Made by a program: the position numbers and the translations under genes. From a virus, in IMG/VR virus record IMGVR_UViG_3300033153_003908, positions 1 to 20,340 of that record: a stretch of DNA of 20,340 bases; one strand, written 5' to 3'. Positions 3,494-6,994 of this stretch are shown piece by piece. The notes beneath the pieces were generated by a model. That model was not told the origin of the DNA. It worked only from the letters and a program-made list of their open reading frames with translations, and ran no database searches. Every line of letters starts with the position of its first letter. Position 1 is the first letter of the stretch.

Positions 3494-4348
3494 TTAAACT
3501 TGATTATACTTATCTATAACTACAAAATTAAATAATATTTTATACTTTTCACATTTTTCATCACAATTAGCTAATACTAATTGTACATAAACAGCTGCTT
3601 GCAACCAATAGTTATAGTAATCAATTGAATCACTAAAATCTGCTAGAGTACGGGCTGTTGTTTTAAGATCCACAATTGTTATTATTTTAGCTTCATGATC
3701 AATATCATAATAATCAATGATTCCTTTCAAACCAAACTCAAAATCAGTTAGTTTACACTCTAACCATTTTTCTTTATAAACTTCTAATGTATCTAACTCA
3801 AAATCAGTTACACCTTTATTGAATAATTGCATCACAGATTCTGTATCTTGAATAATTGCTGCCTTCTCTGTACATTTTTGGATAGTTTCATTATCTACTA
3901 CATCCTTACCACTAGAACAAATGAACTTATAATACTCCTGATTTTCAGTAGTTTGTATCTTTTCTAATCTTTTAGTATCCTCCTTGAAAGACTGATACAG
4001 GTTTTCTTCTTTAAGTACTGCTAATATAACTGTGTCAAGTTTATTAAGATCATTATTATTACTTTGACCTCCTACATCCCTAACAGATTTAAGAATTTTT
4101 TTAATATTATCTGATGGGACCTTTCCTGGAACAATATCAAAGAAATCAGTTAATTTCTCAGGTTCAAACATTAGACAGTGAAGTAACTTTCCTTCAATTA
4201 AATGTTTATCTGTTCTGATCTCACGATCTTTAAGTATATAGTCTTTATAAAACAAAGTTGGTGAAAACATCAACTTGTTTATAGAAGAATAACTAAAATT
4301 AAATGGTTGTGCATAAAATGCAGCTTCTTTTTGTTTATCTATTTTCAT
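3494..4348 (-). CDS. PD-(D/E)XK nuclease (RecE/Exo VIII/Cas4-like), possibly C-terminally truncated
   Basis: This is a likely DNA exonuclease for recombination or end resection. The N-terminal SYSSINKLMFSP (19-30) resembles the start of RecE/Cas4-type nucleases. The catalytic set is in order: H57 in KLLHCLMFEPEKL, D212 in GIIDYYD, D227-L-K229 in the IVDLKTT strand, and Q250xxxY254 in WLQAAVYVQL. The four-cysteine cluster of true Cas4 is not seen. The frame stops at TAA 3496-3494 after DKYNQV. Beyond this stop the same frame continues for 22 sense codons and ends at a TAA overlapping the ATG of the next gene. That continuation suggests an original protein of about 307 aa, with a nonsense change, sequence error or readthrough. 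The catalytic core is complete either way. Confidence 0.9.
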   Translation of the reverse strand: MKIDKQKEAAFYAQPFNFSYSSINKLMFSPTLFYKDYILKDREIRTDKHLIEGKLLHCLMFEPEKLTDFFDIVPGKVPSDNIKKILKSVRDVGGQSNNNDLNKLDTVILAVLKEENLYQSFKEDTKRLEKIQTTENQEYYKFICSSGKDVVDNETIQKCTEKAAIIQDTESVMQLFNKGVTDFELDTLEVYKEKWLECKLTDFEFGLKGIIDYYDIDHEAKIITIVDLKTTARTLADFSDSIDYYNYWLQAAVYVQLVLANCDEKCEKYKILFNFVVIDKYNQV

Positions 4349-4365
4349 ATTCTTATTATTTAAAA

Positions 4366-4680
4366 TAACAGAGGATGGGATACATAGTCTCCAACTATGT
4401 ACCCCACAATTATGGCAACTCCTCTGTCAATAAAATTAGTAATGCAGTAACTTAACTTTATAGACCGTCTTCTCATGTCAGGGATTGCTCCGTTCCATGT
4501 TCATATTGACCCGTAGGTCTTACAAGATACAGGAGTCTTCCCTCCGTTCTCCACACTACTCCTACTTAGGGCTTTTGTTTTACATCTAATTATCTTCATA
4601 CCGTAGTACAGACAAACATTTTGCAGGTAACCTAAATCCAGAACTGTGTACACCAGCGTTACTTACATTACTAATAAATT
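4366..4680 (-). ncRNA. Putative structured noncoding RNA (unidentified class)
   Basis: This lies in a 425-nt gene-free stretch that is visibly G+C-richer than the flanking genes (53 of 120 bases at 4441-4560; the coding line at 5041-5100 has 11 of 60). On the minus strand a long-range helix pairs 4675-4658 with 4451-4435: 6 bp, a small internal loop, then 10-11 bp, enclosing about 200 nt. Inside are two C(UACG)G tetraloop hairpins (4610-4597 and 4519-4508), a GCAA-capped hairpin (4491-4482) and AGGAGT/ACTCCT pairing (4564-4559 with 4536-4531). On the 3' side ACAGAGG/CCTCTGT (4427-4421 with 4374-4368) encloses a 12-bp hairpin (4406-4395 with 4387-4376, 7-nt loop). UACG loops form only on the minus strand, which fixes the orientation. 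It does not match tRNA, tmRNA, RNase P or group I intron signatures that I can recall. Confidence 0.6.
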
Positions 4681-4683
4681 AAA

Positions 4684-4771
4684 AAGGGGCAACCTCTGCA
4701 CCACGCAAATGTGTTATGGGTTATTAAGCTCATCCTGCCACGTCTGGACTTATGTGCTTCAACACCCCCTT
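4684..4771 (-). other. Stem-closed element with U-run, 5' of the putative ncRNA
   Basis: On the minus strand AAGGGG (4771-4766) pairs with CCCCTT (4689-4684), followed by five T (4685-4681). Within the roughly 76-nt interior GCAC (4757-4754) can pair with GTGC (4701-4698). It begins directly after the stop codon of the upstream gene (4776-4774). It could be a terminator with a large structured loop for the AAA+/VWA operon, or the 5' domain or processing element of the downstream RNA. The loop is far longer than in ordinary intrinsic terminators, so the role is uncertain. Confidence 0.4.
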
Positions 4772-4773
4772 AT

Positions 4774-5967
4774 TTAAAATGGTAAAGGACTTTCCTCCTT
4801 ATATTTAATTTTATTTATATCAGTACTTAATATTTTCTTACTAAATTCATCTCTTAAAATTAAAGAGGATGGATCTATTTTAAATACTGAATTAGCTTTA
4901 ACACCATACTGTCCTTCAAATACATTTTTAAATAAACTACATGCAATTGTATTAACAGCAAATTCTGTTAAAGCATTATCTTCTATCAAATGTTTTACAA
5001 TTTGATCAAATGCACCTACATAATGAAAACCATAAGTATTAATATACTTGTTATATTTATTCTTTAATGCTTTAAAATTAACATGATTCCAAGATTTACA
5101 ATTTTTCAGCTCATTACTATGAAAATAAAACAAAAGACTTAAAAAAGTTTTTGATTCTTCAGAATTACAATTTGCCATTATTTCTAAACCCATTGTAACA
5201 TTTTCCTGATCACTACTACTAATCATTTTAATTATATTGCTATAATATTCACTATTTAATATCAGTGAATCAGAAGTAGCTGATTTATTTAAATCTGTAT
5301 CCCAAACTAATTTATCTTTATGTTTAAGAATAGAATGATATTTAGGTATTTCAGAGTTTTTAATATACCACATATATCCACTTGAATCAGCTATTTCTAA
5401 AGAGGATAAATAATCTTTAACTATTTTACCCACATCCTTACTCCAATAGTAGGATGCATTATACCATCTTACTTTATCTTCTGGACCAATATTATTTAGA
5501 AAAGTTTCAATTTTATCAATTGAACCAGGTGTAAAAACATTTTTATTTATACCTTCTTCAAATTTTTTAAAACTTTCAGCTTGATTTCTAACACATGATT
5601 TTCCCCATGTATGATCTGTTAAATTATCCATATAATTTAAAGATAAAACAGCTAGAGTAGCTACCTCTATATCTCTAACTACCTTAGCATTATATTTATC
5701 ACATAGTATTTTAACTTTATCTCTAGGTAATGTAAGTTTAGGAAATCTATAAATTTTTGCATTTTGTAATAAAGAATCACTATAAGCTATACTAAATAAT
5801 TCTTTTAGTGAATGTGATACTTCATGCTCATGATAACCATAACTTTGTTTATTATACATATATAATCCTAAACATTGTAATTCAATACATTCTTCATATA
5901 ATCTACTATTGCTTTCTGAATGATGAGGATTAAATTTTAATTCCCATATTCTATTTTTGTATTCCAT
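4774..5967 (-). CDS. Uncharacterised protein of the AAA+/VWA module, with a DxEN repeat-like motif (397 aa)
   Basis: This is a soluble 397-aa protein with no signal peptide or catalytic motif. Residues 247-288 (KMISSSDQENVTMGLEIMAN and the helix after it) look like a HEAT/ARM-style helical pair. They match a segment in the next upstream protein (about 220-262) and one in the 127-aa protein at 9428-9811 (18-51). The N-terminus has a His-rich stretch (NPHHSES, later GYHEHEVSHS near 44-53), which could bind metal but forms no known motif. The start overlaps the end of the 347-aa gene by 17 nt, so they are probably translated together. It is the last gene before the structured noncoding region. 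It is likely an adaptor or substrate of the neighbouring ATPase/VWA pair, which is inference from neighbourhood and shared motif only. Confidence 0.75.
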   Translation of the reverse strand: MEYKNRIWELKFNPHHSESNSRLYEECIELQCLGLYMYNKQSYGYHEHEVSHSLKELFSIAYSDSLLQNAKIYRFPKLTLPRDKVKILCDKYNAKVVRDIEVATLAVLSLNYMDNLTDHTWGKSCVRNQAESFKKFEEGINKNVFTPGSIDKIETFLNNIGPEDKVRWYNASYYWSKDVGKIVKDYLSSLEIADSSGYMWYIKNSEIPKYHSILKHKDKLVWDTDLNKSATSDSLILNSEYYSNIIKMISSSDQENVTMGLEIMANCNSEESKTFLSLLFYFHSNELKNCKSWNHVNFKALKNKYNKYINTYGFHYVGAFDQIVKHLIEDNALTEFAVNTIACSLFKNVFEGQYGVKANSVFKIDPSSLILRDEFSKKILSTDINKIKYKEESPLPF

Positions 5968-6994
5968 TTGATTTATTTTTTATGTATTTTCTATATTCAG
6001 GTTTTACTTGAACCTTAAAAACATATAAGTTCCTATTATCAATTCTTATTTCTCTTCTTACAATAGGTTCTAGATATCTAAAATTAGTAGGATCTAATAA
6101 TTCATTTTCTTCTAACCATAAAATCATACTTTCAGCAGATCTATAATATAAACCTGATAGATCTGCTTTTCCACACCAATGTTGTACATCTTTATTTCTA
6201 TTTAATTTATATATACGTGATTGTGTTCTTTGAGCTAATTCCCATAATAAATGATAATTTTTAGTATAATCTATAGTAGGAAGTAATTTTCCTGCCATTT
6301 CTATATTTTCTTCATTTCCACTATTTAATTGACTTGAAATATCATCTAATAATTGTTGTGTTAATACTTGTTTAGTAGCACTTTGATCAATTACATCATT
6401 TACAGACATTACTGAAACAGATTCTATTTTAATTCTATGAGCTAAATTAACACACATTCCTGTGAACATATAACCTTCTAATACAGAGTCATATTCTTCA
6501 TTCCATAAATTAAAATTAAATTTATCATCATATATTACAGGATATTTATGCTCATCAAAATATTCACCTATCTTACTATTATTTTTTGCATAAGTTAATG
6601 CATCATAATTCCACATTTTAGCCATCAATCTACTTGTTTGAATAGTATTTCCATCTCTAAGATCTGTACTAAAGTTACTATGTGTTATAACAAGATCACA
6701 ATCAGTATAATCATTTGTCAATACAATACCATGTTCTTTTAAGTTAGCACGTATTCTTGTAATAGAAATAGGAGATTTAGGTAATAAAAAAGCTCTTTTT
6801 TCAGTAGTATATACACAATGTGAAGGAGAAAATTGTTCTTTTATTAGAATATATGTTTGTTCAGAATCAGACATAATTATAGTTGCTATATCTCTTCCTC
6901 CTTGATTAGAAGCTACTCCATAACGAGGAGCAGCTTCTAAATTCCAAAATTTTAATGCATCATTATCAAATTCTTGATGTACGGATTTACTCAT
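5951..6994 (-). CDS. Uncharacterised protein of the AAA+/VWA module (347 aa)
   Basis: This is a soluble 347-aa protein. Residues about 35-110 look alpha/beta (IATIIMSDSEQTYILI, then ISITRIRANLKEHGIVLTND and DCDLVITHSN). This loosely recalls a BRCT-like or Rossmann-type fold, but the similarity is weak. Residues 214-262 (LLDDISSQLNSGNEENIEMA and the following helix) share the S-x-D/N-x-E-N-I/V motif with the two other module proteins. The ATG at 6994 overlaps the TGA of the ATPase gene as ATGA, which indicates direct translational coupling to the ATPase. The C-terminus is basic. No enzymatic residues are recognisable. A role as partner or adaptor of the ATPase is plausible from the coupling. 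Confidence 0.75.
   Translation of the reverse strand: MSKSVHQEFDNDALKFWNLEAAPRYGVASNQGGRDIATIIMSDSEQTYILIKEQFSPSHCVYTTEKRAFLLPKSPISITRIRANLKEHGIVLTNDYTDCDLVITHSNFSTDLRDGNTIQTSRLMAKMWNYDALTYAKNNSKIGEYFDEHKYPVIYDDKFNFNLWNEEYDSVLEGYMFTGMCVNLAHRIKIESVSVMSVNDVIDQSATKQVLTQQLLDDISSQLNSGNEENIEMAGKLLPTIDYTKNYHLLWELAQRTQSRIYKLNRNKDVQHWCGKADLSGLYYRSAESMILWLEENELLDPTNFRYLEPIVRREIRIDNRNLYVFKVQVKPEYRKYIKNKSNGIQK

Follow-up and report, generated by a model that had tools for sequence, protein, structure and literature searches.

A covarying, putatively pseudoknotted RNA module in intergenic spacers of uncultivated phages

Here, we present comparative evidence that an intergenic spacer of an uncultivated phage carries a conserved module of about 88 nt, termed pseudoknot RNA (PK-RNA), whose predicted structure is well supported by compensatory change across its members. 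The stretch analysed (the window) spans an uncultivated virus record of 20,340 bases, whose replication genes lie mostly on the minus strand. Our preferred reading, held tentatively and with slightly less than even confidence, is that positions 4684-4771 (minus strand) of the spacer specify a non-coding RNA with a pseudoknot, present in one copy per phage genome, that would act in trans. No catalogued family matches the PK-RNA, which looks like a new RNA class; the novelty proposed concerns the class and does not extend to its mechanism.

The replication genes of the window comprise a phrog_1252 DNA polymerase, an AAA+ ATPase, a VWA protein, RusA, a TOPRIM primase, a Sak4-like ATPase, DnaB, a helicase, and an SSB-like protein named from its position and acidic tail (no Pfam match). 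According to the open reading frame listing, positions 4349-4773 (minus strand) form a gene-free spacer of 425 nt between two minus-strand genes, with a G+C content of about 0.40 as compared to 0.22-0.30 in the surroundings. An initial annotation of this DNA had correctly recognized a gene-free, minus-strand stretch of raised G+C. It placed a structured RNA at 4366-4680, which lies inside the real spacer and yet excludes, by ending at 4680, the module 4684-4771 that comparison supports. The proposed location between the AAA+/VWA genes and the nuclease gene was accurate on the nuclease side only, as p347 and p397 intervene on the other. The spacer contains three modules and is flanked as follows.

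4774-5967, minus strand: p397, the gene upstream of the spacer, with a C-terminus (...PLPF) that is the same in relatives
4684-4771, minus strand: PK-RNA, the whole conserved module of about 88 nt, delimited by homologs and covariation
4428-4683, minus strand: middle domain with two UACG loops, confined to this phage and its near-identical sister contigs
4368-4427, minus strand: two-stem, terminator-like hairpin with a conserved GCCAUAAUUG bulge at 4407-4416
3494-4348, minus strand: PD-(D/E)XK / exonuclease VIII-like nuclease, the gene downstream of the spacer

The p397 protein had no Pfam, PHROG or PADLOC match. The nuclease reading frame of the window ends at 284 aa (stop codon at 3494-3496) and reaches 330 aa in the near-identical contig L003; because the register between the two is lost there, the window copy appears truncated by an indel or a sequencing error. 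In many of the eighty-odd relatives with the same gene order that formed our comparison set, p397 and the nuclease gene almost abut. Even below gathering thresholds, the spacer matched no known class in Rfam 15 (cmscan at E up to 5 for the window and up to 10 for the isolated spacer), nor did the PK-RNA at the other loci scanned, and neither ARAGORN nor the Rfam models found a tRNA or tmRNA in it, in agreement with the initial annotation, which had also seen no group I intron signature. With the entire spacer as BLASTN query, 50,697 phage records gave nothing beyond short chance matches.

The PK-RNA begins 2 nt past the p397 stop codon. An outer base stem, P1, encloses a four-pair helix, P2, whose loop holds the conserved CCAGACGUGG hairpin (P3) and a strand that pairs beyond P2, forming a predicted H-type pseudoknot inside P1. 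Its parts in the window are:

4766-4770, minus strand: P1 5' strand AGGGG, pairing with 4685-4689
4754-4757, minus strand: P2 5' strand GCAC, pairing with 4698-4701; all four pairs change on both sides across members
4738-4752, minus strand: conserved core UAAGUCCAGACGUGG, made up of the P3 5' strand and the CCA-GACG-UGG hairpin
4723-4729, minus strand: conserved GCUUAAU, the P3 3' strand (ACUUAAU in most members)
4719-4722, minus strand: pseudoknot 5' strand AACC, pairing with 4691-4694; six of six pseudoknot positions covary family-wide
4698-4701, minus strand: P2 3' strand GUGC, pairing with 4754-4757
4691-4694, minus strand: pseudoknot 3' strand GGUU, pairing with 4719-4722
4685-4689, minus strand: P1 3' strand CCCCT, continuing into a T tract

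Relatives share the core UAA-NN-CCAGACGUGG...AACUUAAU, in which P3 combines UAA.../...UUA pairing with CCA-GACG-UGG, and about 25 bases are near-invariant. P1 ranges from 3 to 11 pairs. Three members (L255, L260, L261) insert an optional extra hairpin between GUAA and CCAGACGUGG, at the P2/P3 junction. Single-sequence minimum free energy prediction misfolds the module, with P2 missing, and it was therefore judged by comparison alone.

Two alignments support the helices. The first, of 10 sequences, was made by a tool and involved no choice of register by eye other than that given by the structure; both partners changed in 13 of 23 pairs, and 93.8% of cells were paired. The covariation score was 0.488 versus 0.174; none of 500 shuffles reached 0.488, and all were lower on both covariation and cells paired. 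Sliding the partner strands by 1 to 3 columns reduced pairing to 34-52%. The second alignment, of 20 sequences, is structural and hand-made, with strand register chosen by eye in a way that favours pairing; here 14 of the 15 helix positions (P1, P2 and pseudoknot) show two-sided change, and 92.3% of cells pair, as compared to 62.5 +/- 2.7% (maximum 71.7%) when whole strands were exchanged between sequences. The extra hairpin of L255, L260 and L261 was excised by hand before alignment, and their helices fit nonetheless. P2 alone occurs as GAGU/ACUC, GCAC/GUGC, GCAU/AUGC, UGGU/ACCA, GCGC/GCGC and UCGU/ACGA. The P3 hairpin is too invariant for covariation testing, and CCAGACGUGG looks invariant in part because members were found via core sequence patterns; the covariation in P1, P2 and the pseudoknot does not stem from the search. 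Compensatory helix change across diverged members, which would set a structured RNA class apart, was thus found for this module. It also speaks against the proposal that the spacer contains a degenerate intron or merely folds by chance in AT-rich DNA, a reading that is refuted for the PK-RNA and that we regard as extremely improbable for the spacer. Rfam models for group I and group II introns had no match, and no exon is interrupted, since p397 keeps its normal LPF C-terminal end before the spacer.

Chance folding may still account for the middle domain, which by itself is indistinguishable from shuffled sequence. The elements that the initial annotation described there exist in the sequence: two C(UACG)G loops (4598-4609 and 4508-4519), a GCAA loop (4482-4491) and a long-range helix (4658-4674 with 4436-4456). 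As a significant fold the large domain fails, with a folding z of -1.33 for 4426-4680 and 22 of 200 shuffles equally stable; an uninterrupted long-range stem of at least 12 pairs appears in 43 of 100 shuffles. The z for the whole 425-nt spacer is -2.64. Searches for relatives of the domain, by nhmmer on the fetched loci and on further loci retrieved from IMG/VR in a 15-mer scan, found only the domain itself, and the sole natural change among sister contigs, T to A at 4674, disrupts one of the outer pairs in the closing helix. A 50-aa reading frame with a GTG start (4501-4653) inside the domain is regarded as chance. The middle domain may be RNA, an unproven assignment suggested by its G+C and the lack of a credible reading frame. 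The annotated orphan RNA on the minus strand, unlike anything in Rfam, thus has a counterpart at 4684-4771, just outside the interval given, where the helices covary among relatives; the domain actually described has neither diverged relatives nor significant folding energy.

The third module, the ACAGAGG/CCTCTGT domain of the initial annotation (4368-4427), is a real hairpin, and a separate element that is kept after p397 in relatives. Running from outer stem through a GCCAUARUUG bulge to inner stem, it is similar to an intrinsic terminator. About a dozen relatives have this hairpin in the p397-nuclease gap, immediately or very soon after the stop codon of p397, and the remaining ~340 nt of the window spacer are missing from these hairpin-only relatives. 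Its stems vary and stay complementary (GAACGGAG/CUCCGUUC, GGAAUGGAG/CUCCAUUCC, UAGGGAG/CUCCCUA, ACAGAGG/CCUCUGU), as read by eye and from individual folds, and it remains near the p397 end in L016 and L017, where other genes are inserted before the nuclease. It probably terminates or stabilises p397 transcripts. L060 and L091 carry a different conserved element, GYACGGGUAAGGUUAWAAUAUCUUGUGGAAGCCCGU, at the hairpin's usual place in this spacer.

The contiguity of the three modules on one strand would be consistent with a single large ornate RNA that includes the middle domain and has the pseudoknot as its 5' domain, and structured-looking modules also lie beside the PK-RNA in L096, L115, L258, L259 and L261. 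We consider this improbable, as the modules are separable: about a dozen phages have the hairpin without the others, the PK-RNA stands alone in short SSB-primase spacers, and the middle domain has no relatives.

The PK-RNA family emerged from a weak BLAST match (75% over 48 nt) between positions 22-69 of the spacer RNA and a different spacer in L052. Scanning its core TAAGTCCAGACGTGG through IMG/VR yielded, amid chance hits, further loci with the same flanking architecture, and relaxed patterns extended the family to about 27 distinct sequences, carried by more than 30 contigs of uncultivated phages. Among the matches listed for the loose pattern, the stretches inspected looked like chance, the already known L096 aside. 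A covariance model found one strong copy in each of 22 of 22 positive records, six of them 87-113 kb long, and no copy in 14 relatives, 11 of which exceed 90 kb. Beyond these phages, the first core pattern was found in none of 84,980 bacterial and archaeal genomes; a looser one gave four matches there, all without the remaining RNA. BLASTN of two PK-RNA variants against the 50,697 phage records and of one variant against plasmids gave short chance matches only. The core sequence is not described in the literature searched; an earlier anonymous listing, among the candidates of microbiome RNA surveys, is possible.

Several carriers have further structured-looking elements near the PK-RNA. As compared to L110 and L121, L107 has ~170 nt of extra structured-looking sequence just downstream of it, at about 100-330 nt as counted from where the conserved core starts. 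A second RNA-like module that is not catalogued, RUAAGGCAGUCC...CUUAUGUAGAGUGGC...AGGACUCAUCCUCUACAGC, occurs in three carriers (L115, minus strand, 3653-3854; L259:5426-5524; L245:4752-4839) and adjoins the PK-RNA in two of them. L254 and L255 share a hairpin motif beside the PK-RNA, CUGGGUAUUGCCAG...UAUGGCUCCAG, possibly another small RNA module. Contig L096, also a PK-RNA carrier, encodes a GOLLD RNA (5274-6207, 201.8 bits) after a tmRNA-like match of only 83 nt.

The genomic position of the PK-RNA varies. Within the syntenic clade of the window, 12 phages have it in the SSB-primase spacer and the window has it between p397 and the nuclease gene; it follows the DNA polymerase in L307 and lies well upstream of the operon in L250. 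Elsewhere it follows a polynucleotide-kinase-like gene (L107, L110, L112, L121) or a ribonucleotide reductase gene (L096), both named by eye from sequence. Wherever it was readable, the upstream gene was co-directional with the PK-RNA. In a Sak4 protein tree, a single supported group of 14 rows (96/92) contains 12 of the 14 carriers; L250 is nested there among the SSB-primase carriers, and the window and L115 branch elsewhere. The carrier label is clustered on this tree (5 state changes versus 12.9 when shuffled; 0 of 500). Together, tree and positions suggest that the PK-RNA passes mostly by descent, is lost at times and has on occasion changed position without being lost. Some carriers (L254, L255, L258, L260, L261) have Shine-Dalgarno signals and the clade of the window is without them, so that the carriers probably infect at least two host groups.

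This distribution bears on whether the PK-RNA is a cis-acting mRNA element that controls translation or stability of an adjoining gene, either as a primase leader or as a pseudoknot protecting the 3' end of the upstream gene. It often lies only a few nt past the upstream stop codon, ends ~20 nt before the primase start codon in most SSB-primase carriers, as a leader might, and is followed by T-rich sequence after P1 in several members, to an extreme in L115 and L298. However, neighbouring genes differ between members even within one syntenic clade, the distance to the next start ranges from ~20 to more than 300 nt, and the element is absent from the same place in most relatives. Cis action is therefore unlikely in our view. 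A riboswitch was rejected, as the PK-RNA lies in at least five different genomic contexts with no consistent downstream gene or pathway.

A cis-regulator should stay with its gene, and the PK-RNA does not, which is why we tentatively prefer action in trans. Its single copy on the coding strand, in several spacers and in phages with differing ribosome-binding signals, points to a function independent of the neighbouring gene, and a pseudoknot kept by compensatory change while its position shifts suggests that it acts as a folded molecule. We envisage that the PK-RNA would be transcribed in the orientation of the replication operon, fold and act in trans, and that during infection its conserved core would be presented to a protein or RNA of the host (or of the phage); the middle domain and the hairpin would be modules of their own within this spacer. 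A core that is catalytic or binds a ligand would explain the high sequence conservation equally well.

A catalytic core is what a new self-cleaving ribozyme would have, cutting its own backbone between operon genes and thereby processing the polycistronic mRNA. Such a ribozyme would be consistent with the compactness of the pseudoknot, its conserved core, closing stems whose sequence is free, the absence of a tie to a single gene and the optional hairpin at the P2/P3 junction (L255, L260, L261); self-cleaving elements likewise lack fixed neighbours. In L250, a twister-P1 match (2686-2737; 53.7 bits, gathering score 67.2) lies in another spacer ~1 kb upstream of the PK-RNA, a single case in 30 records. 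Yet no Rfam ribozyme matched the module in the window or the 18 carrier loci scanned, about 25 near-invariant bases are more than small ribozymes usually keep, and a non-systematic look revealed no circularly permuted form. We rate self-cleavage as rather unlikely, yet as the likeliest alternative to action in trans. Taken more broadly, that the PK-RNA represents either a new natural class of self-cleaving ribozyme or a new RNA for anti-defence or host takeover, distributed among phages of several host groups, is conceivable, with considerable doubt.

Among known systems, small self-cleaving ribozymes such as twister, pistol and HDV-like RNAs resemble the PK-RNA in their compact pseudoknotted core, closing stems of free sequence and absence of a fixed neighbour; no Rfam ribozyme matches the PK-RNA. 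The order of helices differs from that of HDV, which has a hairpin between the second helix's 5' strand and the first helix's 3' strand; in the PK-RNA the hairpin lies between the two 5' strands.

Pseudoknot antitoxin RNAs of the ToxI type and the pseudo-ToxI mimic of a phage (PMC3475682) offer another comparison. Like the mimic, which would act in trans and independently of position, the PK-RNA is a small phage-borne pseudoknot RNA in a spacer. In contrast to the 36-nt ToxI units, it has an outer P1 stem and a conserved core. A type III antitoxin RNA (ToxI, CptI, TenpI) was rejected, as the PK-RNA lacks tandem repeats and its neighbours, the PD-(D/E)XK nuclease and p397, match no defence or toxin model.

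GOLLD and ROOL, like the PK-RNA, are phage-encoded, intergenic, pseudoknotted and without assigned function. They span hundreds of nt and are often near tRNA arrays (PMC12286853), whereas the PK-RNA of about 88 nt matches neither model and a tRNA accompanies it only in L255 of 15 carrier loci scanned. The earlier suggestion of a diverged GOLLD or ROOL was not borne out, as cmscan found no such relation in the window. Unlike orphan phage RNAs such as these, which are large and difficult to assay, the PK-RNA is compact at 88 nt and can be made in vitro for tests of cleavage and of ligand or protein binding.
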